The notes under the pieces were generated by a model that was given only the letters and a program-made list of their open reading frames with translations, did no database searches and had not been told where the DNA came from. A stretch of 64,000 nt of DNA from Anaerolineae bacterium (GTDB lineage Bacteria > Chloroflexota > Anaerolineae > DRVO01): contig JABLXR010000027.1 of NCBI GenBank assembly GCA_013178015.1, positions 1 through 64,000 on the forward strand, read 5' to 3'. This document shows, piece by piece, positions 5,073 to 55,213 of this stretch; the first letter of the stretch is position 1; each line of letters opens with the position of its first letter. A program made the position numbers and the translations under genes.

Positions 5073-5093
5073 GGGAGACTCCGTCGAGTTGGG

Positions 5094-9907: not shown

Positions 9908-10132
9908 CTAGAGAGCAAACCACTCCTCTACCGTGAGGCCGACAATCCGGACGATTGCCCGAACGGTACCCACGGGTAGATCACGGGACTGGTGCATGGG
10001 GATAGGTATCTTCAATCGGCTGTCAGGATGGCGCATGAACAGGTGCTTGCCACCGCCGTACGGCCCCTCGAAGCCCAGTGCACGCAGCTTACGGATTACC
10101 TCGCGGGGTGGCTCCGGGCTGAGCTTGGGCAT
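9908..10132 (-). CDS. hicA: HicA-type mRNA interferase toxin
   Basis: A 74-residue protein with the double-stranded-RNA-binding-like HicA fold: an N-terminal helix (PPREVIRKLRALGFE), the GGKHLFMRHP strand with the catalytic His, and a C-terminal TVRAIVRIVGLTVEEW helix. HicA cleaves mRNA and is held inactive by HicB. It follows the HicB-like gene by 7 bases on the same strand. The pair lies between two GH4 genes in an otherwise metabolic cluster. Confidence 0.88.
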   Translation of the reverse strand: MPKLSPEPPREVIRKLRALGFEGPYGGGKHLFMRHPDSRLKIPIPMHQSRDLPVGTVRAIVRIVGLTVEEWFAL

Positions 10133-10139
10133 TGGGGCC

Positions 10140-10433: not shown

Positions 10434-10484
10434 TGTACCGCCGATTGCTGTGTCTGAGCAGCTGGACTGAGCCGAAAGCGACGA

Positions 10485-11783
10485 CTACCGGCTGGCGTAG
10501 AACGCCGGCAGCCACTCCTTGTTGGCCTCTAGCATCTCATCCATCATGGACCGGACCTGTTGCACCTCCAGGCTGTAGCACATGGGGTCCAGCAGCAAGG
10601 CCTGGAGGGCCAGCTTGCGGTCGCCCTCTACAGCGGCGCGCACGGTCAGGTCCTGCACCGTGCCCAGCAGGTTCACCCAACCGGCCACCGCCGGCGGCAA
10701 CTCCCCGAAGTGCAGGGGATGGAACCCGTGGGCACCGATCTGCACCGGCGCCTCCACCACCACCTCCGGCATCACGTTCTCGATGGCACCCCGATTCATG
10801 AAGTTCAGGTCATAGATACGCTTCTCGTCGAAGAGGATGCTGGTGATCATGTGATCCAGCTTCTCCAGCGACTCCCCCCGAGGCCCAGGGACGGGTGCCT
10901 GGCCGGCCAGCGCGGCCTCGATCTCCTGGCGGTACCGGGCCCGTTGCGCCATGCGGTTCTCTACGAAGTTGTGCCGCAGCCGGTAGCGGGATAGGTCCAC
11001 CCCCGGCCGAAGGTAGTAAGGCCAGCACTCCGAAGTGTGGTCGTCGCCGGGGGTGGGGAAGGCCCCGAACAGGTCGTAGAGCTCGGCGCTGATGGCCAGC
11101 GGGTTGTCGCTCACCCTCGCCTTCTCCACGATCTGTGGCAGTAGGTCCTCGCCCGACTCTCTGTGCCTGACCTCCAGCACCCAGTTGAGGTGATTCACGC
11201 CGGCGGCCCGGTAGGCCAGATCGTCTCTCTCCATCCCTAGGAAGTCGGCGAACCACTGCATGGCGATGGTGATGCCGGGGCACACCCCGATGGCCTTGAT
11301 CCGGCTGTGCCGCTGCAGGGCCAGCGTGATGCTCGACATGGGGTTGGTGTAGTTGAACAGGGGCGCGTCGGGGCAGAGCCTCTCCATGGCGTGGGCCAGG
11401 CTGAGGAGCTGGGGGATGGCCTTGAGCCCCTGGATGAAGCCACCGGGGCCGACGCTCATGCCCTTAGGGTGCTGGACGCCGTACCTGTGGGCAATGTTCA
11501 GGTCGGTGGCCCAGGCGTTGTGGCCGCCGGCCATGAAAGTGGAGACCACGAAGTCGGCGCCGTCGATGGCCTCGTCCCGGTCCAGGCTGGTGAGCACCTC
11601 CAGGTCGCCACCCTGCTCCGCGATCATGCGCCGCACATAAGGGGCCATCAGGTCTAGGGCCTTCTGGTCCACGTCCATGAGGACGACGGTGCTGCCGGCC
11701 AACTCCGGAGTGCGCAGCAGGTCGTGAGTGAAGCGCGGTATCCAGGTGAGGCTTCCGCCTCCGATGAAGACGATACGTGGCAT
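10485..11783 (-). CDS. glycoside hydrolase family 4 (alpha-glucosidase/galactosidase-type)
   Basis: A GH4 enzyme of 432 residues. The nucleotide loop is canonical (GGGSLTW, 8-14); the substrate loop is NYTNPMSS (144-151); Cys168 (GVCPG) and His198 (GVNHLNW) supply the metal site. The C-terminal third includes FNRGAIENVMPE-like spacing shared with the paralogue at 8514-9863. It is the first GH4 gene after the methyltransferase gene and is separated from it by a long inverted-repeat element. Intracellular glycoside cleavage is the expected role. Confidence 0.93.
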   Translation of the reverse strand: MPRIVFIGGGSLTWIPRFTHDLLRTPELAGSTVVLMDVDQKALDLMAPYVRRMIAEQGGDLEVLTSLDRDEAIDGADFVVSTFMAGGHNAWATDLNIAHRYGVQHPKGMSVGPGGFIQGLKAIPQLLSLAHAMERLCPDAPLFNYTNPMSSITLALQRHSRIKAIGVCPGITIAMQWFADFLGMERDDLAYRAAGVNHLNWVLEVRHRESGEDLLPQIVEKARVSDNPLAISAELYDLFGAFPTPGDDHTSECWPYYLRPGVDLSRYRLRHNFVENRMAQRARYRQEIEAALAGQAPVPGPRGESLEKLDHMITSILFDEKRIYDLNFMNRGAIENVMPEVVVEAPVQIGAHGFHPLHFGELPPAVAGWVNLLGTVQDLTVRAAVEGDRKLALQALLLDPMCYSLEVQQVRSMMDEMLEANKEWLPAFYASR

Positions 11784-21348: not shown

Positions 21349-21792
21349 CGTTCCTCCCTTGACCTGATCCCGTGCCACGGTATGCGGGTGTTCCCTCCCG
21401 CGCTGCCGGATAGTACACCATATGCACCCCGCTGTAGAAGCCAGGCGAGCAGGACCACTCCCGGACCGCCGTCGCCTCCTCCCGTTTGGCGCCACTGCAC
21501 GTGATGCCCGCCACGAGCCATGGCATGGGGGTCGGTCAGCACCGCCTTCGACCGGGCTGCCGCCTCCGGCAGCGGCGAGCCCGGCTTGCACCGGCCTCGA
21601 ATTGGGGCAGAATGGTGGTTCAGGAGCAGCTTTCCGATGGTGCGGGGCGAAGATGGTCCTCTTGGCGATCAGATGCCGGAAGCCAACGCGATCCCGACTC
21701 CGGATGCGGGGCCAGGAGCCCGGGCCAAGCGCTTGAACGTCGCATGACCGGTTGGCGGCCAGCCACACGTGGGCTCGGCCAAGGAGAGAGGT
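21349..21792. other. divergent intergenic region
   Basis: This 444-base stretch separates the minus-strand DegT operon from the plus-strand ADP-ribosylglycohydrolase genes and must hold both promoters. I see no convincing gene or RNA in it. An AAGGAGAG box at its right end serves the GTG at 21793. Confidence 0.5.
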
Positions 21793-22752
21793 GTGAGCGG
21801 ATCGCTTATCTCACGCTACCGAGGGGCCATGTTAGGCCTGGCCGTGGGCGACGCTGTGGGAACCACGCTGGAGTTCTGCCCTCCTGGCAGCTTCATCCCC
21901 ATCGAGGACATGCTGGGCGGTGGCCCGTTCCGCCTCAGGCCGGGCGAATGGACCGACGACACCTCCATGGCCCTGTGCCTGGCCGAGAGCCTGGTGGCCA
22001 AGAGAGGCTTTGACCCAGTGGACCAGCTCGAGCGCTACTGCCTCTGGTACCGGACCGGGCACCTGGCCTGCACCGGTCGTTGCTTCGACATCGGCAACAC
22101 CACTCGGGCGGCCCTGGAACGGTTCGAGCGCACCGGCGACCCCTACTGCGGCCCTTTGGGTCCGCGCACCGCCGGCAATGGTTCCCTGATGCGCCTGGCT
22201 CCGGTGCCGCTGGCCTACGCCCGACACCCCCGCCAGGCGATGGACTACTCCGGAGAAAGCTCCCGCGCCACCCACCAGGCGCGGACGGCGGTGGATGCCT
22301 GCCGCTACTTCGGGGGACTGATCGTCGGCGCCCTGGCTGGCGTCAGCAAGGCCGAACTGCTGAGCGAGTGCTACTCCCCGCTAGCCGGGTACTGGCAGGA
22401 GCGGCCCCTAACCCCGGAGATCGACGAGGTGGCCCGCGGCTCGTTCAAAGTGCGGAGGCCGCCCGAGATCCAGGGAGCGGGATACGTGGTGCGGTCGCTG
22501 GAGGCAGCCCTGTGGGCTTTCCACCACACCGACGACTTCCGGGCCGGCTGCCTGGCGGCCGCCAACCTGGGAGACGACGCCGACACTACGGCCGCCGTCT
22601 ACGGGCAGTTGGCCGGGGCCTTCTACGGCGAGGAGGGCATTCCTGCTGCCTGGCGGGCCCGCCTGGCACACCGGGATTGGATTGATCCCCTGGTCGAAGG
22701 GTTGTTCGAGCTGGCCCAGGCCCTGCCGGGAGAGCACGATGGGCAACCGTGA
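21793..22752 (+). CDS. ADP-ribosylglycohydrolase (DraG) family protein
   Basis: A 319-residue all-helical DraG-type protein. Motifs are canonical: RYRGAMLGLAVGDAVG at the start, WTDDTSMALCLAESL (first Mg ligands, about 56-70), PRTAGNGSLMRLAP, SSRATHQ, and AANLGDDADTTAAVYGQLAGA (second Asp cluster, near 263-283). DraG enzymes remove ADP-ribose from Arg, from other protein sites or from nucleic acids. The GTG at 21793 follows AAGGAGAG. It overlaps the next DraG-family gene by 14 bases, so the two are a translational unit. Confidence 0.94.
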   Translation: MSGSLISRYRGAMLGLAVGDAVGTTLEFCPPGSFIPIEDMLGGGPFRLRPGEWTDDTSMALCLAESLVAKRGFDPVDQLERYCLWYRTGHLACTGRCFDIGNTTRAALERFERTGDPYCGPLGPRTAGNGSLMRLAPVPLAYARHPRQAMDYSGESSRATHQARTAVDACRYFGGLIVGALAGVSKAELLSECYSPLAGYWQERPLTPEIDEVARGSFKVRRPPEIQGAGYVVRSLEAALWAFHHTDDFRAGCLAAANLGDDADTTAAVYGQLAGAFYGEEGIPAAWRARLAHRDWIDPLVEGLFELAQALPGEHDGQP

Positions 22753-23836
22753 GGTGCTGGAAAGCCTGCTCGCCGGCCGGAGCATTGATCTGTCCCGAGG
22801 AGCCTTGCTCGACTATGCCCCCGGGCCCATGCGGAAGGATCTGAGCTTCGAACGGGTGGAGGGCATGCTGCTCGGCCTGGCGGTGGGCGACGCCTTGGGC
22901 AACACCTCCGAGGGCCAGCTTCCTGATCGCCGTCGGGCTCGGTACGGCGAGATCCGCCACTACCTTCCCAACCGTCACGCCGCATATCGAGCCGTCGGCC
23001 TGCCCTCCGATGACACCCAACTGGCCTTCTGGACCCTCGAGCAAATGCTGCGGGATGGTGGCCTCGATGTCGAGCACCTGGCTCGTCGCTTCTGCCAGGA
23101 GCCCATCTTCGGGGTTGGCTCCGCTGTGAGCCAGTTCGTCACCAACTGGAAGGCCGGCCAGCCCTGGTACCAGTGCGGCGTCCGATCCGCTGGCAACGGC
23201 GCTCTCATGCGCATCGCCCCCGTGCTGATTCCCCATCTCCAGACAGGTGGCCGCGAGCTATGGGCAGACGTCGCCCTGGCTGCCATGGTCACCCACAACG
23301 ACGCGGCGTCCATCTCGGCTTGCCTGTCCTTCACCCACCTTCTGTGGCAGGCACTCCAGCTCCCGCAGCCTCCGTCGCCGGAGTGGTGGCTCGAGGAGTA
23401 CGTACAGGTCGCCAGGGATCTGGAAAGGGGGGATTACGCCTCCAACGCCCCTGCGCATGCCGGCTACCGCGGTCCGGTGTGGCGCTTTGCCGAGGAGCGG
23501 GTCGCCCTGGCCTGGCGTAAGGGTCTCTCCGTTTTGGAGGCATGCAACTGGTGGTACTCCGGTGCCTACCTGCTAGAGACGGTGCCGAGCGTGCTCTACA
23601 TCCTGATGAATCACGGGCACAACCTGGAGGAGGGAATCATCCGGGCCGTCAACGACACCCTGGATAACGATACCATAGGCGCCATTGTGGGAGCGGCTCT
23701 GGGTGCGCTTCACGGGAAGCGGGCCATACCGGGCCACTGGTTGGGAGGACTCCTCGGCCGGACGGGAGCCGAGGATGATGGCCAGGTGTTCGCCTTGCTG
23801 ACGGAAGCGCGCTACGCCTGGTGGGGCGGTCATTGA
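22739..23836 (+). CDS. ADP-ribosylglycohydrolase family protein, second paralogue
   Basis: A 365-residue DraG-family protein, distant from its upstream neighbour. It has VEGMLLGLAVGDALGNT, PSDDTQLAFWTLEQML (metal ligands), RSAGNGALMRIAPV, VTHNDAASI and VNDTLDNDTIGAIVGAALGAL. The last motif reads DNDTIG in place of DxDTxx, but the acidic residues are kept. Compared with the first paralogue it has an N-terminal extension of about 40 residues and a large insertion near 205-260. The ATG at 22739 lies inside the previous gene. Two different ADP-ribose hydrolases in one operon suggest two substrates or a heteromer. Confidence 0.9.
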   Translation: MGNREVLESLLAGRSIDLSRGALLDYAPGPMRKDLSFERVEGMLLGLAVGDALGNTSEGQLPDRRRARYGEIRHYLPNRHAAYRAVGLPSDDTQLAFWTLEQMLRDGGLDVEHLARRFCQEPIFGVGSAVSQFVTNWKAGQPWYQCGVRSAGNGALMRIAPVLIPHLQTGGRELWADVALAAMVTHNDAASISACLSFTHLLWQALQLPQPPSPEWWLEEYVQVARDLERGDYASNAPAHAGYRGPVWRFAEERVALAWRKGLSVLEACNWWYSGAYLLETVPSVLYILMNHGHNLEEGIIRAVNDTLDNDTIGAIVGAALGALHGKRAIPGHWLGGLLGRTGAEDDGQVFALLTEARYAWWGGH

Positions 23837-30054: not shown

Positions 30055-32490
30055 TCACGCGGTAGCCGAGCCCAGCGCGTGGCCCGCTTGGGCGACTCCG
30101 TCGGCCTTACCGCGCAAGCGCAGGGAGTTTCCCACCACCAAGAGGCTGCTGGTAGCCATGGCCGCAGCGGCGATCACCGGGCTGATGAGGCCCAGCGCCG
30201 CTAGGGGCACCGCGAACACATTGTAGGCGAAGGCCCATCCCAGGTTCTGCTGGATTACCGCGCGGGTCTGGCGAGACACTTCAACGAACCATGGCACCAC
30301 GGCCAGGTTCGGTCGGGTGAGGACCAGGTCTGAGGTCTCGCCGGCAACGTCGGTTCCGCCGGCAGTGGTGATGCTGAGGTCGGCCTGCGCTAGCGCGGGG
30401 GCATCGTTCACGCCGTCGCCCACCATGGCCACCGTCTGGCCGGATCGCTGCCATTCGGCGATTCGGGCCGCCTTCTCCGTGGGCGAGCAACCCCCCTCGT
30501 AATCCTCCAGGCCCAGATCCTTGGCGATAGCCCTAGTTGTCCCGGGGCTGTCGCCGGAGAGCATCACCGGCTGGACCCCATGCGCGCGCAGGGACGCGAG
30601 GGCAGCCGGCGCCGTGGGGTTAGGTTGGTCGCGCAAGGCTATGAAGCCCTTCAGGCCATCACCGGAGCCAACCCACACCACCGTCTCTCCGCGCAACTTC
30701 CGTCCTTCCGCCTCCTGGGCCAAGTCGGAGCTAGAGTCGACACCAAGGAATCGGTCTGAGCCCACCAGCACTCTCCAGCCGGCTTCGGCACCGTTCGTCC
30801 GCACGCTCACTCCCATGCCCCTCACGATCCGCGGGTCCTCCGCCGACGGTGGGGGCGAAGGGGCGGCAGCCACGATCGCTCTTGCCACCGGATGCTCCGA
30901 GTACTGCTCCGCCGCTGCCGCCAGCGACAGCAACTCACTGCGGTCGATCCGGGCGGCCGGGACCACTGCCACGTCTGTGACCGACAGCCGGCCTTCGGTC
31001 AGGGTGCCCGTCTTGTCAAACACGATGCGCTGAACCCTTGCAGCCGTCTCGAGGGCCACCGGGTTGCGAACCAGGACTCCCGCTCGAGTGGTGCGGCCGA
31101 GGACGACCGCGAGAGCCAGTGGCGTAGCCAGGCCCAGAGCGCATGGGCAGGCCACCACGAGCACCGACACGGCTGCCAGGAGCGACCGGGCAGGCGCGTG
31201 CCCGGTGAGCCACCAGCCCACGAAGGTGAGCGCAGCCGCCCCCATGATCCCGAAGGCGAAGTAAGCGGAAGCTCGGTCCGCCAAGCGCTGGATGGGCGGC
31301 TTGATGGCCAGGGTTCTCTGCACAAGCTGCGCGATCTGAGCCAGGCGGCTCTCTGCCGGTGGCCTGATCACCCGACCGATGATGGCGGCATCAGTGACGA
31401 CGGTGCCCGCAAGCACCGAATCGCCGGGGCCACGTTCCACCGGGGCGGACTCGCCCGTTACCAGAGACTCGTCCAACGTGGCGTGGCCCTCCTCGATTGC
31501 GGTGTCAGCAGGCACACGCTCCCCCGGTTTGACCAGGATCCTGTCCCCGGGGGCAAGGGCGCTGGCACTGACCTGGTGCCACTCATTGTTCCAGGGGCGC
31601 CAGGCCTTCGCGGGCTGGAGGGACAGCAGCTCGCGGATGCCCTTGCGGGCCTCGGAGCCACCCACGGCCTCCAGGTAGCGGCCTAACATGACGAAAGTGG
31701 TGATCATGACCACGGAATCGAAATAGGCCTCGCCGCTGCCGGTCAGCGTGACGTAGACGCTGTAGGCGTACGCTGACAGCGTGCCCAGACTGACCAGGGT
31801 GTCCATGTTGGCGGTGTGGGCGCTGCGCAACATACCCCAGGCACCGCGCAGGAAGCTGCTCCCGCCGTAGAAGAGCGCCGGGGTGGCGAGCGCCCAGACC
31901 AGGTACTGCAGCGTCCGCACTTCAGGGTCGCTGAACCTGCCGGCGGCGTACAGGGGGTAGAGCTGCACCAGGTAGAGCAGCATCACCTGCATGCCGAAAG
32001 CGGCGGCAGTGATCAGTTGGAGAAGAGTGCGCTCCTGGGACATGGCAACGTGGTGCGACTGGGCGCTCGCCATCGGGGAGGCGTGGTAGCCCAGCCGCTC
32101 CAGGCTCTGCAGAACAGAAGCCAGATCTGCCCGGTCCGGGTCATAGTCGATGCGGCCTTGCTGACCGGAGAAGCTGATCTCAGCGCTTCTCACCCCTGGC
32201 TGGTGCCGGAGGACGCGCTCGGCCGCGACGGCGCACCCGGGACAGTGCATCCCCTGCACAGTGAAGTGAGCGGACCGCTCGTGCCCCTGGAGGGGTGCCG
32301 GCCGCAGCGCAGGCTCAGATGTGGGGTCTGCCAGCACCTGGTCCAGCATGTCGTTCGCCTGGGCCACTTCGTAGACCCGAGCGCAGCCCTGGCTATCGAA
32401 GTGCTCTTCCACCCCATTCAGTTCTCTGACGACAGGGCTACCCTCAATCACGCGGCCGCATAGGGCGCACCGCTCGTGCTCATTCGCCAC
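30055..32490 (-). CDS. ccoI: copper-translocating P1B-type ATPase (CcoI/FixI-like)
   Basis: An 811-residue heavy-metal P-type ATPase. It starts with a small Cys motif (CALCGRV, 8-11), then an HMA domain (GMHCPGCA, 80-87). Membrane helices follow, with the ion-site CPC (VACPCALGLATP), the phosphorylation site DKTGTLTEG, and GDGVNDAPAL. The CPC type transports Cu+. Being the last gene of a cbb3-type oxidase operon and carrying an extra N-terminal Cys cluster, it fits CcoI/FixI, which supplies copper for oxidase assembly rather than for detoxification. The symbol reflects context; CopA is the alternative. Confidence 0.88.
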   Translation of the reverse strand: MANEHERCALCGRVIEGSPVVRELNGVEEHFDSQGCARVYEVAQANDMLDQVLADPTSEPALRPAPLQGHERSAHFTVQGMHCPGCAVAAERVLRHQPGVRSAEISFSGQQGRIDYDPDRADLASVLQSLERLGYHASPMASAQSHHVAMSQERTLLQLITAAAFGMQVMLLYLVQLYPLYAAGRFSDPEVRTLQYLVWALATPALFYGGSSFLRGAWGMLRSAHTANMDTLVSLGTLSAYAYSVYVTLTGSGEAYFDSVVMITTFVMLGRYLEAVGGSEARKGIRELLSLQPAKAWRPWNNEWHQVSASALAPGDRILVKPGERVPADTAIEEGHATLDESLVTGESAPVERGPGDSVLAGTVVTDAAIIGRVIRPPAESRLAQIAQLVQRTLAIKPPIQRLADRASAYFAFGIMGAAALTFVGWWLTGHAPARSLLAAVSVLVVACPCALGLATPLALAVVLGRTTRAGVLVRNPVALETAARVQRIVFDKTGTLTEGRLSVTDVAVVPAARIDRSELLSLAAAAEQYSEHPVARAIVAAAPSPPPSAEDPRIVRGMGVSVRTNGAEAGWRVLVGSDRFLGVDSSSDLAQEAEGRKLRGETVVWVGSGDGLKGFIALRDQPNPTAPAALASLRAHGVQPVMLSGDSPGTTRAIAKDLGLEDYEGGCSPTEKAARIAEWQRSGQTVAMVGDGVNDAPALAQADLSITTAGGTDVAGETSDLVLTRPNLAVVPWFVEVSRQTRAVIQQNLGWAFAYNVFAVPLAALGLISPVIAAAAMATSSLLVVGNSLRLRGKADGVAQAGHALGSATA

Positions 32491-32527: not shown

Positions 32528-32848
32528 TCAGCCCACCTCGGAGTAATCGTGGACAACCAGGTCCCCTTGAGAGAGGTGGGGCCCGAACTCCACGAGCACC
32601 TTGCCCTCGGCCAGGCCCGACTCCGCGTGAGCCAGCAGGTCCTCCCAGAGCTCCCACTGGCTCTGGAAGATCAGATGCTGGCGGTCGGGGATATCCACCG
32701 AGTAGAGGGCTCGAGCGGTGATAAAACCCGGCTGGCTGGGGAGAAGAGAACGAAGATAGGCTAGCACGCGCTCGAGTGCGGCGCCGATCTGCAACTCACT
32801 CATCTGCTCAGGCCCGATGTAGAAGCTCACTTGGTGAACGTAGGCCAT
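32528..32848 (-). CDS. small ABM-type (dimeric alpha-beta barrel) protein
   Basis: A 106-residue soluble protein with ferredoxin-like strand/helix spacing: HQVSFYIG, then PGFITARALYSVDIPDR, then LIFQSQWELWEDLLAHAES. This fits antibiotic biosynthesis monooxygenase-like domains, which include haem-binding and haem-degrading members. Function is not known. Its place inside a cytochrome oxidase assembly operon, 12 bases after the CcoP-N-like gene, hints at a link to haem or copper insertion. Confidence 0.65.
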   Translation of the reverse strand: MAYVHQVSFYIGPEQMSELQIGAALERVLAYLRSLLPSQPGFITARALYSVDIPDRQHLIFQSQWELWEDLLAHAESGLAEGKVLVEFGPHLSQGDLVVHDYSEVG

Positions 32849-32860: not shown

Positions 32861-33163
32861 TCATCTTGGCGTCCAATAGATCACAAGATAGGCCAACCAC
32901 CAGAGAATGATGCCGGGTAGAGCGATTCGCACTATCAGCGGCAACCCGCCTCCTGCCTCTTCAATCTCCCCGGCGAAGCTGTCGATGTAGCTGTCCGGCC
33001 GTACCTCTTCCGATTCGTCTTCGATGTCGCGATGGCCCCTGCTCCCCGGGAGGGCGCCTATCCGGTGCGGGATAGCCACGGCCACCGCGAAGATGATGAG
33101 AATGAGCGCTCCTCCGAAGGTGTAGGCCAGCTCCAGAGGCACGCGAAGCACATTCTGTGTCAC
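32861..33163 (-). CDS. small two-helix membrane protein, CcoP N-terminus-like
   Basis: A 100-residue protein with one helix near the N-terminus (LAYTFGGALILIIFAVAVAI) and one at the C-terminus (IVRIALPGIILWWLAYLVIYW), joined by an acidic segment (DIEDESEEVRPDSYIDSFAGEIEEAGG). The second half resembles the FixP/CcoP N-terminal region, a D-G-I-E-E-like stretch followed by a Trp-rich helix, but no cytochrome domain follows. A split CcoP, with its haem domains moved to the CcoO fusion upstream, is an attractive reading. CcoQ is an alternative. Confidence 0.6.
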   Translation of the reverse strand: MTQNVLRVPLELAYTFGGALILIIFAVAVAIPHRIGALPGSRGHRDIEDESEEVRPDSYIDSFAGEIEEAGGGLPLIVRIALPGIILWWLAYLVIYWTPR

Positions 33164-33233: not shown

Positions 33234-33419
33234 CTACCCTCGATTCTCTGCAGTCTGTTTCTCGTCCCAGGGCTCTGGTTCCCTGTCTTCCAGCATCCGG
33301 TACTTGGGCTCCTCAATGTTCTTGAACTGACCTGTACGCCAGCCCCAGATGATGGAGGCGATCGCCGTGAGGATAACGAATGCCATCCAGGCGACGACAG
33401 TCCACAGACCGATGGGCAT
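33234..33419 (-). CDS. ccoS: CcoS-like cbb3 oxidase assembly protein
   Basis: A 61-residue protein with one N-terminal helix (WTVVAWMAFVILTAIASII) followed by WGWRTGQFKNIEEPKYRML. CcoS proteins have the same plan, a helix and then W-x(4)-GQF-D-D-L-E-x-P-x-x-R-I-L, and are needed for haem and copper insertion into cbb3 oxidases. It starts 2 bases after the CcoO-fusion stop. The family call depends on this single motif but is strongly supported by position. Confidence 0.75.
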   Translation of the reverse strand: MPIGLWTVVAWMAFVILTAIASIIWGWRTGQFKNIEEPKYRMLEDREPEPWDEKQTAENRG

Positions 33420-33421: not shown

Positions 33422-35374
33422 CTAGCCTCCTTGGCCCTGGTTCGGCAAGGTCTGGACGTGGGCTACCAGGTCCCAGATGTCCGCTTCACTCAGGAAGCCG
33501 TAGAAGCCGTACATCATAGTGCCTGGGACCCCGTCCCAAGTTCGCCAGAAGATGTAAGCCTGACTCATGTTGGGGGCGAAGGCCGCCGGCCCGGGGATGC
33601 CGTGCCCGGCCGTGTCGGGACCGTTGCCCTGCCCCTGGTTGCTGTGGCAGGGGCCGCAGTAGCTGTCAAACAACTGGGCGCCGTGGTCAGCTGAGATGGT
33701 ATGGCCCAGGTCCTGAGTCCACATGTCTGTGGAGACGGTCATAAAGTCGGTGGCCACGGAGCCGTCGCCATACACGCTGTCCACGGGCGCGGGTGGAACT
33801 GGCCCGCCGGCAGGCACGTTCATGACTATCGCCTGCTGGATGTACTTGATAACGTGCCAGCGGTTCTGGATGGGCATCCATTCGCCCCAGCTGGGCATGG
33901 CCGAGTTCTGCAGGCCATAGGTGACCCGGGCAAAGAAGTCACCGTCACTCAATCCGCGCACGTCCGGGTCGGTGAAGTTGGCCGGCGACACGTCCAGATA
34001 CTGGCCGTCCCAACCGTTTCCCAATCCGGCCAGGCCGTGGCAGTGAGCGCACATCAGGAGGAACATCTGCCGGCCCGGGTCGTAGGCGGCGGAGTCGGGC
34101 ATCGTCTGCGCCATGGCGATCTCAGGGTACGTCTGCTTGGCGGCGCTCTCCGGACGGGGTTCAGTCTGGGTGAAGTTGGTCCGGATGTAGTGCACGACGT
34201 TCCAGCGATCCTCGTCTGAGTACTCTAGTTTCCACGCAGGCATGGCCGTCCAGGGCACGCCCTCGCTGATGCGCCAGAAGTAGTCGGCATCGGTGAAGGT
34301 GGGGTTATCCATGGTGCCATAGCTGCCGTCGCCAAAGTCTGGGGGCGGTGGCTCTAGGCCCTGCCGGTAGATGCCGTGGCCACGACCGGCGTCGCCGTGG
34401 CAGACCCAGCACTCGCGGATGAAGATGTGCTTGCCCGCCTCCAGAGTCTCGATACCGGCCGGCACAGGGTTAGTGAGGCCAGCGTAGGGCTCCGGCGGGT
34501 CGCCCTCATCCGGGTCGCGAGCCATGGGCGCGGCGAACACCTGCTGCACGTACCGGATGACGCTCCAGCGCTGTTGCTCAGTGAGGCTGGCCTTCCAGAC
34601 AGGCATCACCGTTCCCGGGACACCCTCGGAAACGTGCCAGAACCACTGATCATCTGGCATGCTCCTGACGGGTTCCTGCTTGAAGTCCGCCGGAGTGACG
34701 ATCTTGGTACCGGCGTAGTGGCCCAGCCCGTTGCCAGCGCATCCGTGACAGGTCAGGCAGTACTTGACGTAGATCTCCTTGCCCTCCTGAAGCCCAGCTG
34801 CAGTCCACGTGGCCCAGCCCTGTGACTGGTCACCGGGCACCGGAGTCGCGGTCGGGTAGGGAACGGGGTCCACAGAACCGGCATACTCCGCCGGCGGCAA
34901 AACCATGTGTTGGGCTGAGGTACGATCGCCCAAGCGCGACAGGTAGGCGGCAATGTCCTGCAGCTCCTGCTCCGGGAGGAAGTACCAGTTGGGCATGATG
35001 GAGAGGGGCGACAGGTCTCGCGGGCGCCTCAGATGCTCGATCTCCCAGGCCACGCTGCGTTTGCGGCCGATGTAGGACAAGTCTGGCCCAGTCCTCTCCG
35101 ACCCCAGGATCATGGGGTTGTCGAACACGTAGTCCCCGCCATCGGAGACGGAGCCCATGCCTGTGTCCTCGTCGCGGACGTACTGGGTGTGGCAGTAGTT
35201 GCAGCCGTTGCTGTAGTAGGCGACCCGGCCACGTTCTTCGGCCTCAGTGTAGGGGAGAGCGATGAAGGTTTGGCTGGGGTTCCACACCAGACCGGGAATG
35301 AAGACGGCGGCCGCTGCCACGGCGAGGAACACGATCATGGCGCCGAACACCACCACTCTGAAGGTCATTCTCAT
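33422..35374 (-). CDS. ccoO: pentaheme cytochrome c: CcoO fused to four cytochrome c domains
   Basis: A 650-residue protein anchored by one N-terminal helix (about 5-30). Residues 40-150 are CcoO: CNYCH (58-62), HTQYVR, GSERTGPDLSYIGRK and the distal Met in SIMPNW. Four class I cytochrome c domains follow with CLTCH (206-210), CWVCH (322-326), CAHCH (442-446) and CGPCH (573-577). Each has a downstream Met ligand candidate (TVMPVW, TAMPAW, SAMPSW, TMMYGF). Normal CcoO is about 200 residues with one haem, and the dihaem CcoP is separate. Here the extra haems are carried on CcoO itself. The protein lies 11 bases after ccoN. Confidence 0.93.
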   Translation of the reverse strand: MRMTFRVVVFGAMIVFLAVAAAAVFIPGLVWNPSQTFIALPYTEAEERGRVAYYSNGCNYCHTQYVRDEDTGMGSVSDGGDYVFDNPMILGSERTGPDLSYIGRKRSVAWEIEHLRRPRDLSPLSIMPNWYFLPEQELQDIAAYLSRLGDRTSAQHMVLPPAEYAGSVDPVPYPTATPVPGDQSQGWATWTAAGLQEGKEIYVKYCLTCHGCAGNGLGHYAGTKIVTPADFKQEPVRSMPDDQWFWHVSEGVPGTVMPVWKASLTEQQRWSVIRYVQQVFAAPMARDPDEGDPPEPYAGLTNPVPAGIETLEAGKHIFIRECWVCHGDAGRGHGIYRQGLEPPPPDFGDGSYGTMDNPTFTDADYFWRISEGVPWTAMPAWKLEYSDEDRWNVVHYIRTNFTQTEPRPESAAKQTYPEIAMAQTMPDSAAYDPGRQMFLLMCAHCHGLAGLGNGWDGQYLDVSPANFTDPDVRGLSDGDFFARVTYGLQNSAMPSWGEWMPIQNRWHVIKYIQQAIVMNVPAGGPVPPAPVDSVYGDGSVATDFMTVSTDMWTQDLGHTISADHGAQLFDSYCGPCHSNQGQGNGPDTAGHGIPGPAAFAPNMSQAYIFWRTWDGVPGTMMYGFYGFLSEADIWDLVAHVQTLPNQGQGG

Positions 35375-35385: not shown

Positions 35386-36789
35386 CTAATAGGCCGGCGC
35401 CGAGTAGGCAGTGGTCTCGCCCGGCTCTACGGTCGGGTGGCGGGCCGGTCTGCCTGCCAAGGCCGTGGCGAAGAGGTTGTAGGTGAAGATCATGAAGCTA
35501 AGGACCAGTAGGACGCCTCCCGTGGCCCGCAGAGCCATGTAGGGCCGCAGGCCAGGCAGGACGCTCCACACCGGAAGACCCTGGTGCACCCAGTTGGTTC
35601 CCTGGGTCAGGCCGGTGAGCAGGAAGCCTCCAAAGAAGAAGGTGAACCCCACGACGTAGAGGCTGTACTGAACATTGGCCAGCGTGCGGCTGAAGAGCAC
35701 CCGTCTGTAGATCCTTGGAATGACATAGTAGGCCCCGCCGACCACGGTGGAGGCGGCGAAGAAGAGCAGAGACAAGTGTGCATGTCCGGGAACGTACTGA
35801 GAGAAGTGCGTCAGCAGGTTGATGTGGCGCAGCGCTTGATGCGAGCCCTGATAGGAGACGAGAACGTAAGCCGCCCAGCCGGTGACGATGAAGCGCAGAG
35901 GTAGGCTCGTAAGAACACGGTTCCAGTTGCCTCTCATGGTGAGGAAGATGTTCATCATGAAGGCGACCACCGGTAGGACCATGCCGATGCTCTCGGCGAC
36001 AGCTATGGTCTTGAGCCAATAGGGGATCGGCGCCCACAGAAGGTGGTGCGCGCCCACACCGGTGTAGAAGAAGGCGATACCCCAGAATGCTATCAGGGAA
36101 AGGAAGTGGCTGTAGAGTGGGGTATTGGTCTCCTTGGGCACCACGTAGTACATCACCGGCAGCAGCCCGGTAGTGAACCAGAGGCCAAGGACGTTGTGGC
36201 CGTAGAACCAGTTGAAGATGGTGTCGTCGATACCGGTGAGGGCCCCGGTCCAGGGATGCCACATAACGTTTCCGATGAAGTAGAGCATGGGCATCCAGAC
36301 CAAGGTGCCGGCAATGTACCATAAGCTAACGTAGAGCTTGGGCTCTATCCGGTGGCGAATGGTCATGTAGAGGTTCGCCAGGTTGAGCACGAGCACCACC
36401 ATGACGGCGACATCAACTCCCCAGGTGAGCTCGGCGTACTCCCGGCTCTGAGTGTGCTGGTTGACCAGGCCCCAGATGCCAACGATGAGAGCGACGTTCC
36501 ATAGAATGACCGTGAGGTTGCCCAGGGACTCACTCCAGAGGCGGCGGCCCGTGAGCCTCGGCACTATGTAGAGCCACATACCCATCATGCCACCAGAGAG
36601 GAAGGCGAACATGACGGTGTTGGTGTGTGCCTGGCGCAAGCGGCTGAAGACCAGTTGGGGTATCCCTTCGAGGAAGTCAGGGAACACGAACTGAGTCGCC
36701 AGGATCAGGCCCATCAGGACTCCGATGACGATCCAGATCGAGGCAGCTAGGATGAAGTTACGGCTAGCACTATCCGGTTTGGTGAACAT
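35386..36789 (-). CDS. ccoN: cbb3-type cytochrome c oxidase catalytic subunit I
   Basis: A 467-residue polytopic subunit of a C-family haem-copper oxidase, which reduces O2 at high affinity. Ligands are recognisable: His55 and His338 for haem b, His336 for haem b3, His198, His248 and His249 for CuB. Tyr242 sits six residues before the HH pair, the spacing typical of the cbb3 cross-linked Tyr. The ATG at 36789 has AGGAG 8 bases upstream; an in-frame extension to 36885 is unlikely. It leads the operon ccoN, pentaheme ccoO, ccoS-like, CcoP-N-like, ABM-type protein, ccoI-like. Confidence 0.95.
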   Translation of the reverse strand: MFTKPDSASRNFILAASIWIVIGVLMGLILATQFVFPDFLEGIPQLVFSRLRQAHTNTVMFAFLSGGMMGMWLYIVPRLTGRRLWSESLGNLTVILWNVALIVGIWGLVNQHTQSREYAELTWGVDVAVMVVLVLNLANLYMTIRHRIEPKLYVSLWYIAGTLVWMPMLYFIGNVMWHPWTGALTGIDDTIFNWFYGHNVLGLWFTTGLLPVMYYVVPKETNTPLYSHFLSLIAFWGIAFFYTGVGAHHLLWAPIPYWLKTIAVAESIGMVLPVVAFMMNIFLTMRGNWNRVLTSLPLRFIVTGWAAYVLVSYQGSHQALRHINLLTHFSQYVPGHAHLSLLFFAASTVVGGAYYVIPRIYRRVLFSRTLANVQYSLYVVGFTFFFGGFLLTGLTQGTNWVHQGLPVWSVLPGLRPYMALRATGGVLLVLSFMIFTYNLFATALAGRPARHPTVEPGETTAYSAPAY

Positions 36790-49589: not shown

Positions 49590-50741
49590 GTGAGAGGTCG
49601 CCCTTTGCTGTCACTCGTGCTGCTCGTGTCCCTTCTCCTGTTCTCAGTCCTTCCGGCACACGCCAGTGCCCCTGAGGCCGTCAACTGGCTCAAAGCCCAG
49701 CAACGTCCGGACGGCGGCTTCGGCATGGAGCAGAGCACCCTTTCTGAGACCGCCGAGGTAGTCTACGCCCTGGCTGCTGCGGGCGAGGACCTGACTTCCG
49801 TGGCAGTTGGGGGCAACAGCCCGCTCGACTTCCTGGCCGCCAATGTGGACCAGGCCACTACCGTGGGCGCTCAGGCGAAGGTGGCTCTCGCCTTCACCGC
49901 CGCTGGCCGCGATGCCTCCGACGTGGATGGCGTCGATCTCATCGGCGTTATCGGGGACAGCCTGGACGCCGAGGGCAAGTTCGGCGGCCCGGAGGCCATC
50001 CTCACCGACCACCTCTACGCCATGCTGGCTCTGACTTCGGCCGGACAGGAGGTACCTTCTGCAGCGGTGGACTGGCTGGTCGCCCGGCAGGCCCCCAACG
50101 GCGGTTGGGCCTGGAACGCCTCCCCCGACGAGGCCGATACCGACAGCAACACCACCGCCCTGGCGCTGCAGGCGCTAGTGGCCGCCGGCGTCGCCTCCGA
50201 TGAACTGGCGGTCACCTCAGCTCTGGAGTACCTGCGCGGCCTCCAGAACGAGGATGGCGGCTTCTGCTATCAGAAGCCCTCGCCCTACGGCACCGACACC
50301 GACGCCAACTCCACCGCCGTCGTCCTACAGGCGCTGGTGGCGGTGGGCGAGGACCTGGCCGACTGGGTCAGCAGCGAGGGCAACGGGCCCCGGGACGCGC
50401 TGGCAGCGCTGCAGAACCAAAGCGGCGCCTTCGCTTGGCAGGCAGCCTTCCCGGACAACAACCTCCTGGCCACCGCTCAGGCCGTACCGGCGTTGCTCGG
50501 ACGGCCCTATCCCATCGCCGTGACCCCGGTCGGGGCGGAACCGCCCGTGGCCGCCATGGAAGCCACGCCCGTCCCCACCGAGACGGCGGCCCCTCTCGAG
50601 CCCGCTACCACCCCGGCTCCCGTCGTCCCCACCACGGGCGGCGTCCTGCCCTCCACCCCGTGGGGGCAGATCCTCATGGTCACCGGGGCGCTTCTCGCCG
50701 GCGGAGGCTACCTCCTGCGCCGGCGACTGGGCCAGCGCTGA
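49590..50741 (+). CDS. secreted squalene-cyclase-like repeat protein; putative cobalamin-binding alpha-type protein with C-terminal anchor
   Basis: A 383-residue exported protein. Signal peptide 1-25. Residues 25-315 hold alpha-toroid repeats with the motif LxxxQxxDGGFxx (WLKAQQRPDGGFG, WLVARQAPNGGWAW, YLRGLQNEDGGFCY, ALQNQSGAFAW). This is the fold of prenyltransferases and of the alpha domain of intrinsic factor/transcobalamin. A Pro/Thr-rich linker leads to LPSTPWGQ, a hydrophobic helix and RRR, an LPXTG-like anchor. The GTG at 49590 has GAGGAGG 8 bases upstream. The riboswitch upstream and ECF genes downstream make B12 capture the likely role; direct binding is inferred. Confidence 0.85.
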   Translation: MRGRPLLSLVLLVSLLLFSVLPAHASAPEAVNWLKAQQRPDGGFGMEQSTLSETAEVVYALAAAGEDLTSVAVGGNSPLDFLAANVDQATTVGAQAKVALAFTAAGRDASDVDGVDLIGVIGDSLDAEGKFGGPEAILTDHLYAMLALTSAGQEVPSAAVDWLVARQAPNGGWAWNASPDEADTDSNTTALALQALVAAGVASDELAVTSALEYLRGLQNEDGGFCYQKPSPYGTDTDANSTAVVLQALVAVGEDLADWVSSEGNGPRDALAALQNQSGAFAWQAAFPDNNLLATAQAVPALLGRPYPIAVTPVGAEPPVAAMEATPVPTETAAPLEPATTPAPVVPTTGGVLPSTPWGQILMVTGALLAGGGYLLRRRLGQR

Positions 50742-50787
50742 GGCTACCATCCATCCGGCCGAACGAGGGGAACCAGAGGACGGGACC

Positions 50788-51654
50788 ATGAGTCAGTCGA
50801 GCGCCCTGCCCAGGACGTGCTGGGCGCGCAACAATCGTAGGGGCGAACCTTGTGTTCGCCTGTGCACCGAGCGGATGAACACAGGGTTCGCCCCTACGGC
50901 AGCGGGCCTGGCTGGGACGAACTCGTGCAGCCAGGCAGGAGCACGCCGCGGGGCGGACGTGCTCCGCCTAATGTTGGTCGCGCTGCTGCTCGTCCTGGCG
51001 ACGCTCTCACCCGGCTCCCCGGCGCTAGCTCAGACGCCCTCGTTCGGCAGCGCCGGTCTGATCGTGGAGTACGGGGACGGGCGGGCCGACGTCTTCTGCC
51101 TCACCTTGCCTCGGGAGAGCGTCACCGGAACCGAGCTGCTTCAGCTCAGCGGGCTGCCGGTGGGCATGGCTACAGCAGGGATGGGCACTCAGATTTGCCA
51201 GATCGGGGAGGTCGGCTGCGAGCCCGGCCGCCAGCACTGCTTCTGCCAGTGCCTGGGCACTCCCTGCACCTATTGGACCTACTTCTACTGGAAAGACGCC
51301 GCCTGGATCTACTCCCCGCTGGGGCCCGGCCTGCGCCAGGTGAGCGATGGCGACGTGGACGCCTGGGTATGGGGCGACGGAACGACGCTCCCAGCCACCC
51401 CTGCCGATGCGGCCTGTGCTCCCTCTGCCAGTGCAGTTCCAACGGCGGCGGTGACCGCCACTGCCACGGCGGCACAGCCTAGCGAGGCCGCCACGGCCAC
51501 CGTCGCCCCGGCCCCTCCTTCCGAGGCCAGCCCGGAACGCACCGTCTCTCCTACCGCGGAGCCGGCCGTGGGTACCGGCCTGGCCTGCCCGTCGGCGGTT
51601 CTGCTGTTACTGCCCCTGGGGCTTCTGGGCGCCCTGGCCTGGGCGAGGAGATAG
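50788..51654 (+). CDS. secreted DUF4430-like protein; putative cobalamin-binding beta-type protein
   Basis: A 288-residue protein. Residues about 62-82 form the signal helix (LMLVALLLVLATLSPG), so the true start may be ATG 50971 or GTG 50959. The ATG at 50788 has GAGGA upstream but yields a 60-residue leader, part of which is an inserted inverted repeat. The folded part (about 85-200) resembles DUF4430, the transcobalamin beta-domain relative: GLIVEYGDGRADVFCLTL, ELLQLSGLPV and YWTYFYWKDAAWIYSPLGPG, with several Cys (CEPGRQHCFCQC). A Thr/Ala linker and a C-terminal helix with RR anchor it. Presumed partner of the alpha-type protein. Confidence 0.82.
   Translation: MSQSSALPRTCWARNNRRGEPCVRLCTERMNTGFAPTAAGLAGTNSCSQAGARRGADVLRLMLVALLLVLATLSPGSPALAQTPSFGSAGLIVEYGDGRADVFCLTLPRESVTGTELLQLSGLPVGMATAGMGTQICQIGEVGCEPGRQHCFCQCLGTPCTYWTYFYWKDAAWIYSPLGPGLRQVSDGDVDAWVWGDGTTLPATPADAACAPSASAVPTAAVTATATAAQPSEAATATVAPAPPSEASPERTVSPTAEPAVGTGLACPSAVLLLLPLGLLGALAWARR
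50836..50898 (+). repeat. inverted repeat (GTAGGGGCGAACC family) inside a coding 5' end
   Basis: The left arm cgtaggggcgaaccttgtgttc (50836-50857) pairs with the right arm gaacacagggttcgcccctacg (50877-50898) with one mismatch over 22 bp. A short spacer rich in cggatg separates them. It lies between the best ribosome-binding site and the signal-peptide helix of the beta-type protein gene and stays in frame. It looks like a small mobile palindromic element. Confidence 0.85.
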
Positions 51655-51658
51655 AGCC

Positions 51659-52717
51659 GTGTTCCATCCGGTGGCCTTGACCTTTTGGGTGGTGGCAGCG
51701 GCTGCCGCCGCTCTGGGGACGCGTAACCCCCTCTATCTGTCGCTACTACTACTGGTCGTCTGGCTCACTTACTCCGCCGCCCGACGCTACAACCCTCGCG
51801 CCCGCTGGGGCAGCATCCTCAAGCTGGGGCTGTGGGTGTGGGGCATCACCATACCCTTCAATGCCCTGTCCTCTCACATTGGACGCTACGTCCTCTTCAC
51901 CCTCCCCCGCAACTGGCCCGTCATCGGAGGGCCGGTGACCGCCGAGGGGGTGCTTTTCGGCTTCCTCAACGGGCTGGCGCTGGTGCTGTTACTCACCACC
52001 TTCGCCGCCTTCAACACTGCTGTGGAGCAGCACGAGCTTCTCCGGCTCGTCCCTTCCGCCTTCTACCACGCAGGCATGATCGCCTCCATCGCCGTCACCT
52101 TTGTCCCGGTGATGACCGCGACCTTCGAGGACATCCGCCAGGCCCAGACGCTGCGCGGGCACCGCTTTCGCGGCCTGCGCGACCTACTTCCTCTGATCGC
52201 GCCCCTGCTGGCCAGCGCCCTGGAGCGGTCCATCCAGCTGGCCGAGGCGATGGAGGCTCGAGGCTACGGTAGCGGCATTCGGCCCCTGGCCCCCGGACGT
52301 AACGCTCTTCTCCAGATCGGGCTTCTCATCGGGCTGCTGTCCCTCACTGGCGGGCTCTTCGTCCGGGCCTACTACCCCGACGCCCGCTCGCTGGGAGACG
52401 CGCTCTCGTTGGCAGCCGGAGGGGGCATCGCGGCTATCCTCTGGTACCAGGGGCGCAGGGTGCACCGCTCCTACTACCGGGTATGGCGCTGGGATTGGCC
52501 GAGCCGGATAGTGGCCCTTCTGGCAGCAGTCTCGTTCCTGGCTCTGCTCACGGCGAACCGCTGGAGTGCCACCGGGCTGGTCTACTACCCCTATCCCCCG
52601 GGCGACCTGCTGCCGTCGTTCGATCCGCTGCTCGGGATGGCACTGCTGCTGCTGGGGGCGCCGGCAGCGATGTCGGCCCGCTCGTCTGCGCCGGAGGTGG
52701 TGCGTGCCGAGTCGTGA
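51659..52717 (+). CDS. ecfT: ECF transporter transmembrane subunit EcfT (CbiQ-like)
   Basis: A 352-residue membrane protein with about six helices. It carries both EcfT coupling motifs: QAQTLRGHRFRG (near 160-171) and EAMEARGYGSG (near 196-206), the Ala-Arg-Gly signatures that bind the ATPases. The C-terminal 100 residues add two further helices and are longer than in typical CbiQ. The GTG at 51659 lies 4 bases after the preceding stop. It couples ATP hydrolysis to S-component toppling. Confidence 0.92.
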   Translation: MFHPVALTFWVVAAAAAALGTRNPLYLSLLLLVVWLTYSAARRYNPRARWGSILKLGLWVWGITIPFNALSSHIGRYVLFTLPRNWPVIGGPVTAEGVLFGFLNGLALVLLLTTFAAFNTAVEQHELLRLVPSAFYHAGMIASIAVTFVPVMTATFEDIRQAQTLRGHRFRGLRDLLPLIAPLLASALERSIQLAEAMEARGYGSGIRPLAPGRNALLQIGLLIGLLSLTGGLFVRAYYPDARSLGDALSLAAGGGIAAILWYQGRRVHRSYYRVWRWDWPSRIVALLAAVSFLALLTANRWSATGLVYYPYPPGDLLPSFDPLLGMALLLLGAPAAMSARSSAPEVVRAES

Positions 52718-52835
52718 CCGGGGGAAGGCGGCTACGCAGGGCCGCCCCTTCGACAGCCCGCCTGCCTGCGAACACGCAGTAGGGGCAGGGCTGCGAGACA
52801 CGGCTTCGCCGTGTGCGCTTGCGCCTGCTTCAGGA

Positions 52836-54443
52836 GTGGTGGGGCATAGCAGAGGCAGCCCCGTTAACCTGCGCCAGGTGACCTACCGCTATCCCGATGC
52901 CGACCGCTCGGCGTTGGAACGGGTGGACTTGGACCTGGGGGAGGGGGAGTTAGCGCTGGTGATGGGCCCCAGCGGCGGCGGCAAGTCCACCCTGCTACGT
53001 TGCCTCAACGGACTGGTCCCCCACTTCTATGGCGGCGTCTTCTCCGGAAGGGTGAGCGTCTTCGGGCGGGAGCCGGTGGTCCTCGGGCCGCGAGGTATGA
53101 GCGACCTGGTGGGGTTCGTCTTCCAGGACCCGGAGGCGCAGTTCATTGTGGATGACGTGGAGGGAGAGCTCGCCTTCTCCATGGAGGCCCGCGGATACCC
53201 CAGAGCCGAGATGGTGGAGCGAGTGCGAGAGGTCAGTCGCCAGCTGGGTATCGAGGCCCTCCTGGGGCGCCGGCTCAGCACTCTCTCCGGCGGGCAGCGG
53301 CAGAGGGTAGCGGTAGCCGCCGCCCTGGCCCTGCGCCCCCGGCTGCTGGTGCTGGACGAACCTACCTCTCAGCTGGATCCCATGGCAGCGGATGAGTTGC
53401 TGTCCACCCTGGTACGCCTGAACCGGGAACAGGGCCTTACAGTCCTCCTCTCCGAGCACCGGCTAGAGCGGGTGGTCCCCTACGCCGACCGCATCGTCTA
53501 CTGCTCCGGGCCCGGCGGCCCCCTCACCGTAGGCAGTCCACGCCAGGTGCTGCCCCAGGTGCCCCTGGCCCCGCCCGTCGCGGCGTTGGGGCGCCACCTT
53601 AGGTGGACTCCTCTCCCTCTCACGGTGGATGAGGCGCGGCCCTTCGCCCGCGACCTCCCTCCTTCGAACAACGGCCATCGCGCCCATCCGGCTCCCGGTG
53701 AGGTACGCTTGGCCATGCACGGCGTCTGGTACAGTTATCCCGAGGCCACTGCGCTCCGGGGCGTAGACCTAGAGCTGCGGCAGGGAGAGATCCTGGCCCT
53801 GCAAGGCCACAACGGCGCCGGCAAGACCACCCTGCTAAAGGTCCTGGTGGGGCTGCTCAAGCCCGAGAAGGGAGAAGCCCTGCTCGATGGCGCCAGCGTG
53901 GCCGGCCTGGGCCTGCACCAGGTCATCCGCCGAGTCGGGTTCGTGCCCCAGAGCCCCGGCAGCCTTCTCTTCCAGGACACGGTACGGGCGGAGCTGGAGT
54001 TCACCCGTCGCAGCCATGGCCTACCGGCGCGCGACCCCATGGCGCTGTTGGAGCGGCTCGGCCTGGCCGAATACGCCGACACCTACCCCCGCGACCTGAG
54101 CCAGGGGGAACGGCAGCGGGTCGCCCTGGCCGCCATCCTCGTCGCCGAGCCCGAGATCCTTCTCCTGGACGAGCCCACCTTGGGGCTGGACTACCTGCAG
54201 AAGGCGCGGCTGGTGCAGATACTGCGGGAACTCCGCGATGAGGGGAAGTCGGTCCTCATGGCTACCCACGACGTGGAGCTGGTGGCCGCCTGCGCCGACC
54301 GGACGGTCGTCTTGCAGGACGGCCGTGTCCTCGACTCCGGCCGCCCGGGCGAAGTGATGCTGCGCCACGAAGGGTACGCCTCCCAGATCAGTCGACTCTT
54401 CGGCGATGGAGAGCGCCTGACCGTCGAGGACGTGCTGGCATGA
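52836..54443 (+). CDS. ecfA: fused EcfA-EcfA' energy-coupling ATPase
   Basis: A 535-residue protein with two complete ABC domains. Domain 1: Walker A GPSGGGKST, signature LSGGQRQ, Walker B LLVLDEPTSQLDP, and a switch His in LSEHRLE. Domain 2 (from about 290): GHNGAGKTT, LSQGERQ, ILLLDEPTLGLD, MATHDVEL. The two are fused into one chain instead of being separate EcfA1/EcfA2. The start is uncertain because 52720-52835 contains repeat-like sequence and no good ribosome-binding site; GTG 52836 or 52839 begin just before the first beta strand. The gene overlaps the S-component by 4 bases. Confidence 0.93.
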   Translation: MVGHSRGSPVNLRQVTYRYPDADRSALERVDLDLGEGELALVMGPSGGGKSTLLRCLNGLVPHFYGGVFSGRVSVFGREPVVLGPRGMSDLVGFVFQDPEAQFIVDDVEGELAFSMEARGYPRAEMVERVREVSRQLGIEALLGRRLSTLSGGQRQRVAVAAALALRPRLLVLDEPTSQLDPMAADELLSTLVRLNREQGLTVLLSEHRLERVVPYADRIVYCSGPGGPLTVGSPRQVLPQVPLAPPVAALGRHLRWTPLPLTVDEARPFARDLPPSNNGHRAHPAPGEVRLAMHGVWYSYPEATALRGVDLELRQGEILALQGHNGAGKTTLLKVLVGLLKPEKGEALLDGASVAGLGLHQVIRRVGFVPQSPGSLLFQDTVRAELEFTRRSHGLPARDPMALLERLGLAEYADTYPRDLSQGERQRVALAAILVAEPEILLLDEPTLGLDYLQKARLVQILRELRDEGKSVLMATHDVELVAACADRTVVLQDGRVLDSGRPGEVMLRHEGYASQISRLFGDGERLTVEDVLA

Positions 54444-55213
54444 GGTACCTGAACCACGCCATCCTGCTGGCAGCCAGCCTGCTGGGCGCCGGGTCCCTGC
54501 TCCTGCCCTTCTTCGCTCCGCCAGCGGGCGCGGACCAGGCCGGGCCCATGGCCCACGCGGGGGACGCCCCGGTCATCTTCGTAGCCCTGGTGGTGCTCTG
54601 CCTGGGTGCCGTGGCCGCCAACCTGGCCGGTCGGCAGATGAACTCCAAGGTCATGGCGGTCCTAGGGGTCCTAACCGCCATGAATGCCGTGCTGCGGGCC
54701 ATCCCCGGCCCGGGCGGCTTCAGTGCCATCTTCGTGCTCCCCATCCTGACCGGCTACGTCTACGGGTCCACCTTCGGCTTCTTGCTGGGCTCCCTCAGCC
54801 TGCTGATCTCGGCCCTCATCGGTGCCGGCATTGGGCCCTGGTTGCCCTACCAGATGCTCTGTGCCGGGTGGGTGGGTATGATCAGCGGCTGGCTGCCCCA
54901 TCTGCGCCGGCCCCAGGCCGAGATGGCCGTATTGATAGGCTGGGGAGTCCTGTCCGGCCTCATCTTCGGCGCCGTCATGAACCTGTGGTTCTGGCCCTTC
55001 ATCAACGTTCCCGGCGAGGCGGACCTTTACTGGAGTCCAGGGGCCACCCTGGCCGAGGGACTCCGGCGTTACCTGGCCTTCTACCTGCTGACCTCGGCCT
55101 GGTGGGACGCCATGCGCGCCGCAGGCAACGCCGTGCTGCTGGCCCTGTTTGGCCGGGCCCTGGTGACCACCCTGCGCCGTTACCAGCGCCGCTTCCAGTT
55201 CTCCCTGGGCTGA
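54440..55213 (+). CDS. ECF transporter S component, likely cobalamin (CbrT-like)
   Basis: A 257-residue membrane protein with about six helices. It has the S-component feature of small residues in the first helices and PGPGGFSAIFVLPILTGYVYGSTFGFLLG (near 90-118), and an MLCAGWVGMISGWLP segment typical of the ECF-type S family that includes cobalamin- and vitamin-related proteins. Its ATGA overlap with the ATPase gene and the upstream B12 riboswitch point to cobalamin or a precursor as substrate. The N-terminal 40 residues (GADQAGPMAHAGD) form an unusual extracytoplasmic loop. Confidence 0.85.
   Translation: MRYLNHAILLAASLLGAGSLLLPFFAPPAGADQAGPMAHAGDAPVIFVALVVLCLGAVAANLAGRQMNSKVMAVLGVLTAMNAVLRAIPGPGGFSAIFVLPILTGYVYGSTFGFLLGSLSLLISALIGAGIGPWLPYQMLCAGWVGMISGWLPHLRRPQAEMAVLIGWGVLSGLIFGAVMNLWFWPFINVPGEADLYWSPGATLAEGLRRYLAFYLLTSAWWDAMRAAGNAVLLALFGRALVTTLRRYQRRFQFSLG

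Follow-up and report, generated by a model that had tools for sequence, protein, structure and literature searches.

A pentahaem CcoO with four fused cytochrome c domains in a predicted C-family oxygen reductase operon of an Anaerolineae bacterium

The window analysed here is a 64,000-nucleotide stretch of DNA (contig JABLXR010000027.1, positions 1 to 64,000) from the Anaerolineae bacterium assembly GCA_013178015.1, a genome of 4.57 Mb in 97 contigs that is 95% complete. On its reverse strand lies an operon for a haem-copper oxidase whose CcoO subunit carries five haem c-binding motifs. The genes are as follows:

35386 to 36789, minus strand: ccoN, catalytic subunit of a predicted C-family haem-copper O2 reductase (ATG at 36789 the likely start; reading frame open from TTG 36885)
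33422 to 35374, minus strand: ccoO5, pentahaem CcoO, with a transmembrane (TM) anchor, the CcoO haem domain and four cytochrome c domains; 15 homologues
33234 to 33419, minus strand: CcoS/FixS-like assembly protein, 61 residues (PF03597, E = 4e-7, above cut-off)
32861 to 33163, minus strand: haemless CcoP-like membrane anchor, 100 residues, with two TM segments and the motif IEEAGGGLP; family beside CcoO in 16 of 16 loci
32528 to 32848, minus strand: small ABM-like protein, 106 residues (Pfam ABM at E = 0.014 only)
30055 to 32490, minus strand: ccoI-like copper P-type ATPase (CcoI/CopA type; TIGR01511, 505 bits, above cut-off)

The order ccoN, ccoO5, ccoS, the gene for the haemless two-TM protein, the ABM-like gene and ccoI is conserved. 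Neighbourhood clustering of the pentahaem loci recovered the operon genes alone, with the copper P-type ATPase kept in 14 loci, and revealed neither a conserved donor gene nor a multihaem or surface cytochrome; some loci additionally contain a TauE/SafE-like gene. The ABM-like gene adjoins the oxidase genes in almost every complete locus, and we know of no role for its product in oxidase assembly.

The product of ccoO5 consists of 650 residues with CxxCH motifs at residues 58, 206, 322, 442 and 573, whereas in 20,000 shuffles of the protein's residues no trial had more than one CxxCH. Pfam assigns FixO to residues 12 to 139 (PF02433, 105 bits against a cut-off of 29.6; whole-protein E = 4e-30) and recognizes five Cytochrome_CBB3 stretches. 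The N-terminal domain matches the Protein Data Bank CcoO 6xkw_o (E = 8e-19); among solved structures, the best matches to the N-terminal part are CcoO chains, and that to part of the remainder is the Kuenenia dihaem cytochrome 6h5l. An AlphaFold model of mediocre to moderate confidence (pLDDT 71, pTM 0.63) has one N-terminal helix (residues 2 to 30), and its Foldseek matches are mostly individual c-type domains. The protein can be divided as follows:

34905 to 35374, minus strand: CcoO domain proper (residues ~1 to 157), with the anchor, CNYCH at residue 58, axial Met candidate M127 and FixO at 12 to 139
34505 to 34813, minus strand: cytochrome c domain c2 (residues ~188 to 290), conserved better than the other domains (71% mean identity) and bearing an additional invariant cysteine, Cys212
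34130 to 34477, minus strand: cytochrome c domain c3 (residues ~300 to 415)
33800 to 34102, minus strand: cytochrome c domain c4 (residues ~425 to 525)
33425 to 33715, minus strand: cytochrome c domain c5 (residues ~554 to 650)

Each haem domain contains an invariant Met in all 16 pentahaem proteins compared (M127; M257, together with M239; M378; M493; and M621, together with M603). The first-pass annotation of this DNA had described the gene in these terms, and its coordinates, length and motif sites proved exact. The Met-containing segment that it placed after each CxxCH, the single membrane anchor and the CcoO identity of the first ~150 residues agree with the invariant Met residues, the modelled helix and the FixO match, respectively, and its central claim, that the CcoO subunit of a cbb3 (C-family) enzyme carries four additional cytochrome c domains by fusion, is borne out by the Pfam and motif searches.

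Mean identity of the homologues to the window protein is 62% for the CcoO domain and 71, 60, 43 and 43% for c2 to c5, and thus drops outward from c2, as expected if the inner domains pack against the core and the outermost one encounters a variety of donors. Within the window protein, c2, c3 and c4 are mutually 33–38% identical, which indicates descent from related domains. In c2, a further cysteine, C212, directly follows the haem motif (CLTCHGC) and is invariant in 16 of 16 pentahaem proteins.

The homologues come from GTDB genomes scanned with CcoN and from a scan of the phylum. A survey of other genomes for the same fusion, which the first-pass annotation had proposed, yielded an uninterrupted pentahaem CcoO of 636–673 residues in 15 of them, within the same operon and with the same haem spacing (CxxCH at 58, 204–208, 320–324, 436–462 and 561–591). 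By record names, the carriers belong to Chloroflexota and Actinomycetota (Coriobacteriia, Thermoleophilia and others). A seventeenth case (L043) is truncated by its contig end and was left out of the 16. The gene is rare: any related CcoN occurs in 13 of 396 genomes in the class sample and 9 of 400 in the phylum sample, and the pentahaem form in only three genomes of the two samples (that of the window, G405 and G474).

CcoN matches the Protein Data Bank CcoN 3mk7_A with an E value of 4e-61, and NCBIfam cbb3 models are its top matches; its TIGR00780 (ccoN) score of 304 bits lies under the cut-off of 583, in line with a divergent CcoN lineage. In Pseudomonas stutzeri numbering, the His ligands H60, H207, H257, H258 and H345 and the cross-linked helix-VII tyrosine Y251 are kept in all 16 pentahaem loci, and the sixth His ligand, H347, in 15; Y223, T215 and H337 are likewise kept in all 16, and S240 in 14. 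By its active site, as read from the sequence, CcoN is predicted to be a C-family O2 reductase, not a nitric oxide reductase (NOR). The pentahaem CcoN proteins form one clade, with an SH-aLRT support of 100 in a larger quick tree and UFBoot/SH-aLRT supports of 100/100 in a careful tree. The neighbours of this clade are lineages whose CcoO is dihaem and one, mostly Methanoperedens, in which CcoN and a trihaem CcoO form a single chain; the trihaem group is sister to the pentahaem clade with a support of 90 in the quick tree, a relation that the careful tree does not resolve. The canonical Glu323 of CcoN is replaced by Gln in 16 of 16 pentahaem, 10 of 10 trihaem and 41 of 50 dihaem relatives.

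In canonical cbb3 oxidases, CcoP serves in electron input and supplies a proton-channel residue. The present operon encodes no dihaem CcoP, and a profile search found no FixP_N match above the cut-off in the genome, where the other Cytochrome_CBB3 genes encode a 176-residue lipoprotein-like cytochrome c and the trihaem subunit of a GMC dehydrogenase. The enzyme thus departs from the canonical CcoNOP composition on two counts, since it has no detectable dihaem CcoP and its CcoO, with five CxxCH motifs, is not monohaem. Instead, every pentahaem locus (16 of 16) encodes a haemless protein of ~100 residues beside CcoO, which the first-pass annotation had overlooked. The window copy has no Pfam match; archaeal members of its family match PF14715 (FixP_N; eight of the 26 family members, with a best E value of 7.5e-6), and a profile links the archaeal proteins to the anchors of the pentahaem loci (E = 2.7e-8). 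Moreover, a motif at the start of the second helix, I-x-E-x4-[LVM]-P, matches that of canonical CcoP examples and is present in the window copy; its Glu occurs in 15 of the 16 pentahaem anchors, all except L053. A direct hhalign comparison of the anchors with CcoP N termini gave only a weak match (probability 11%), equalled in score by a locally shuffled control. Because of the FixP_N matches of the archaeal homologues and the shared motif, the protein is likely to be a remnant of the CcoP membrane anchor. In cbb3 oxidases, a conserved Glu of subunit III (CcoP) forms the entrance of the single proton channel, a role that would explain why the anchor was retained after haem loss.

A tree of the individual cytochrome c domains, which rests on about 100 columns of short domains and serves as a guide of modest resolution only, places c2, c3, c4 and c5 each in a clade of its own across hosts (supports 96–99), indicating that the domain order is old and stable. 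In this tree, c2 groups with the c2 domain of the trihaem proteins (80) and c4 with their c3 domain (91), c5 falls tentatively among dihaem domains (82), and the haem domains of canonical CcoP form a separate group (97*). At this modest resolution, the extra domains appear similar to those c domains that are found in CcoO relatives of the dihaem (PRK14486-like) and trihaem (Methanoperedens) kinds. The first-pass suggestion that the electron-input chain had been moved onto CcoO and doubled is not upheld by this grouping. Relocation of the CcoP haem domains was also considered as an origin, and the domain tree speaks against a simple transfer.

A comparison with canonical cbb3 enzymes of the CcoNO(Q)P type (P. 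stutzeri, 3mk7 and 5djq; Rhodobacter capsulatus, 6xkw) reveals a common CcoN core with its ligands, a common CcoO haem domain, and CcoS and CcoI-like genes. However, the canonical enzymes have one haem in CcoO, a dihaem CcoP and E323 in CcoN, whereas the present system has five haems, a haemless anchor and Gln. The fusion of CcoO with a single cytochrome c is already known from the NCBIfam model PRK14486 (NF011054; ‘bifunctional cbb3 subunit II/cytochrome c’, 294 residues), which is the best NCBIfam match to CcoO5 (211 bits, under the cut-off of 447); its length fits one extra c domain, whereas CcoO5 has four. The trihaem oxidases of Methanoperedens likewise combine extra c domains on CcoO with an adjoining gene for a haemless FixP_N-like anchor, but their CcoN and CcoO form one chain of ~880 residues with two extra domains, whereas the pentahaem form has separate genes and four. 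Loci with this trihaem CcoN–CcoO chain (L054–L057, L060, L062, L065, L066, L068 and L110) contain, in most cases, the CcoP-like haemless anchor and a CcoS-like gene, and these anaerobic methane-oxidising archaea apparently possess a cbb3 O2 reductase. A seemingly parallel case is found on rhizobial plasmids (Sinorhizobium meliloti pSymA, L146; Phyllobacterium, L145; and L147): a CcoO of 554–561 residues with three CxxCH motifs, annotated only as cbb3 subunit II, next to a small haemless FixP_N-like protein and distant from the pentahaem clade in the CcoN tree. The CcoP of Neisseria is reportedly trihaem, so that the number of c domains changed on CcoP there and on CcoO here. An altered CcoP in the Neisseria cbb3 oxidase has been described (PMC2924362). 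A C1–C2–NirS fusion in Chloroflexi (PMC8756737) also joins donor cytochrome domains to a terminal reductase in Chloroflexota, but that enzyme is a nitrite reductase with an unrelated core. Searches of the open-access literature, outside which most subscription papers lie, turned up neither a pentahaem CcoO nor a CcoP devoid of haem.

Collectively, these observations probably describe an O2 reductase of the C family whose electron-input chain is covalently attached and in which the CcoP haems have been replaced and a separate haemless anchor has been kept. In the complex that we infer, electrons would enter at the outer domains and pass from c5, the outermost, through c4, c3 and c2 to the haem of the CcoO domain, which would hand them to CcoN for the reduction of O2. 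The four attached domains would stand in for the two haems of CcoP and perhaps also for a mobile cytochrome c carrier, and the anchor would hold the complex together and supply the Glu at the proton-channel entrance. The maturation functions at hand comprise FixS and the copper ATPase in the operon and cytochrome c assembly genes in the genome. An attached chain may be useful in cells that lack a typical outer membrane and would lose soluble carriers, although the rhizobial trihaem case indicates that the trend extends to other cells.

The first-pass annotation had also proposed a long haem wire that might reach a surface or extracellular donor, a possible arrangement for which the operon neighbourhoods contain no conserved donor gene. 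A bc-type cytochrome b (PF00033, Cytochrome_B) was not detected in the window's genome or in 11 of the 16 carriers, a result weakened by incomplete metagenome-assembled genomes, and the usual quinol:cytochrome c route is therefore not evident. The distribution of NrfD across the 16 carriers showed no common alternative complex III pattern and no shared donor complex. Within the window's genome, the lipoprotein-like monohaem cytochrome c and the GMC dehydrogenase with its trihaem subunit are candidate local donors. In the same genome (L142, contig C10, positions 4136 to 8748), genes for a GMC oxidoreductase, a gluconate-dehydrogenase-subunit-3-like protein and a trihaem cytochrome c stand in a row, a cluster that may be an electron source outside the membrane.

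The four domains could alternatively act as a wire that carries electrons to O2 from beyond the cell wall, be it from minerals, Fe(II) or partner cells. The hosts belong to cell types that do not have a typical outer membrane, the cytochrome b result is compatible with such a route, and Methanoperedens, an archaeal group with known extracellular electron transfer, has related trihaem forms. However, no conserved multihaem or surface cytochrome adjoins the operon, several carriers are metagenome-assembled genomes of uncertain completeness, and the lipoprotein-like cytochrome c and the GMC dehydrogenase offer other donors; we regard this alternative as improbable. An extension of the attached-chain reading, doubtful though conceivable, would have a cbb3 lineage in wall-bounded bacteria without an outer membrane that has dispensed with both the quinol:cytochrome c oxidoreductase and the CcoP haems: its pentahaem arm would take up electrons from outside the cell or, without an intermediary, from dehydrogenases on the outer face of the membrane, and the haemless CcoP remnant would keep the proton channel.

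It is highly unlikely that the extra haems serve mainly as an electron store, meeting bursts of O2 without waiting for a donor, in O2 detoxification. Some carriers belong to lineages usually regarded as anaerobic and the operon has no donor gene, but nothing specific favours storage, and five c haems hold five electrons, little above one O2 turnover.

An NO-reducing, NOR-like enzyme is suggested by the kinship of NOR and C-family enzymes (PMC3084760) and by the anoxic settings that record names imply for some hosts. Helix-VII Tyr251 and all the CuB His ligands are nonetheless kept in 16 of 16, the NCBIfam cbb3 models rank top and the tyrosine (Tyr-II) is a C-type feature (PMC3084760), which makes NO a very improbable substrate in place of O2. 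Membership in the cNOR and eNOR families was considered separately; in these families the active-site Tyr gives way to Glu-type NOR motifs or, in eNOR, to Gln (PMC8756737), and no such Tyr replacement occurs in any of the 16 proteins. Finally, an assembly chimera or a mis-called fusion of two genes, the danger named in the first-pass annotation together with homologues always split at the junction, is as good as excluded, since 15 independent genomes contain the same uninterrupted reading frame and the gene is never split in this clade, the contig-end truncation of L043 being the one exception.

As a predicted C-family enzyme with an attached input chain, the oxidase apparently splits the two tasks of CcoP onto separate chains, a natural experiment in which each role becomes testable. 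Mono-, di-, tri- and pentahaem forms of CcoO also make up a series from which the lengthening of a respiratory enzyme's input chain can be read. Surveys that score cbb3 oxidases by CcoP will overlook such enzymes, the archaeal ones included.

Elsewhere in the window, positions 49590 to 55213 encode two proteins, one with repeats that resemble prenyltransferase/intrinsic-factor folds and one DUF4430-like, immediately ahead of an ECF-type transporter set; together these look like a vitamin uptake locus. Three GH4-type glycosidase-like genes lie in tandem at 7061 to 11783, and two adjacent ADP-ribosylglycohydrolase-like genes at 21769 to 23836.
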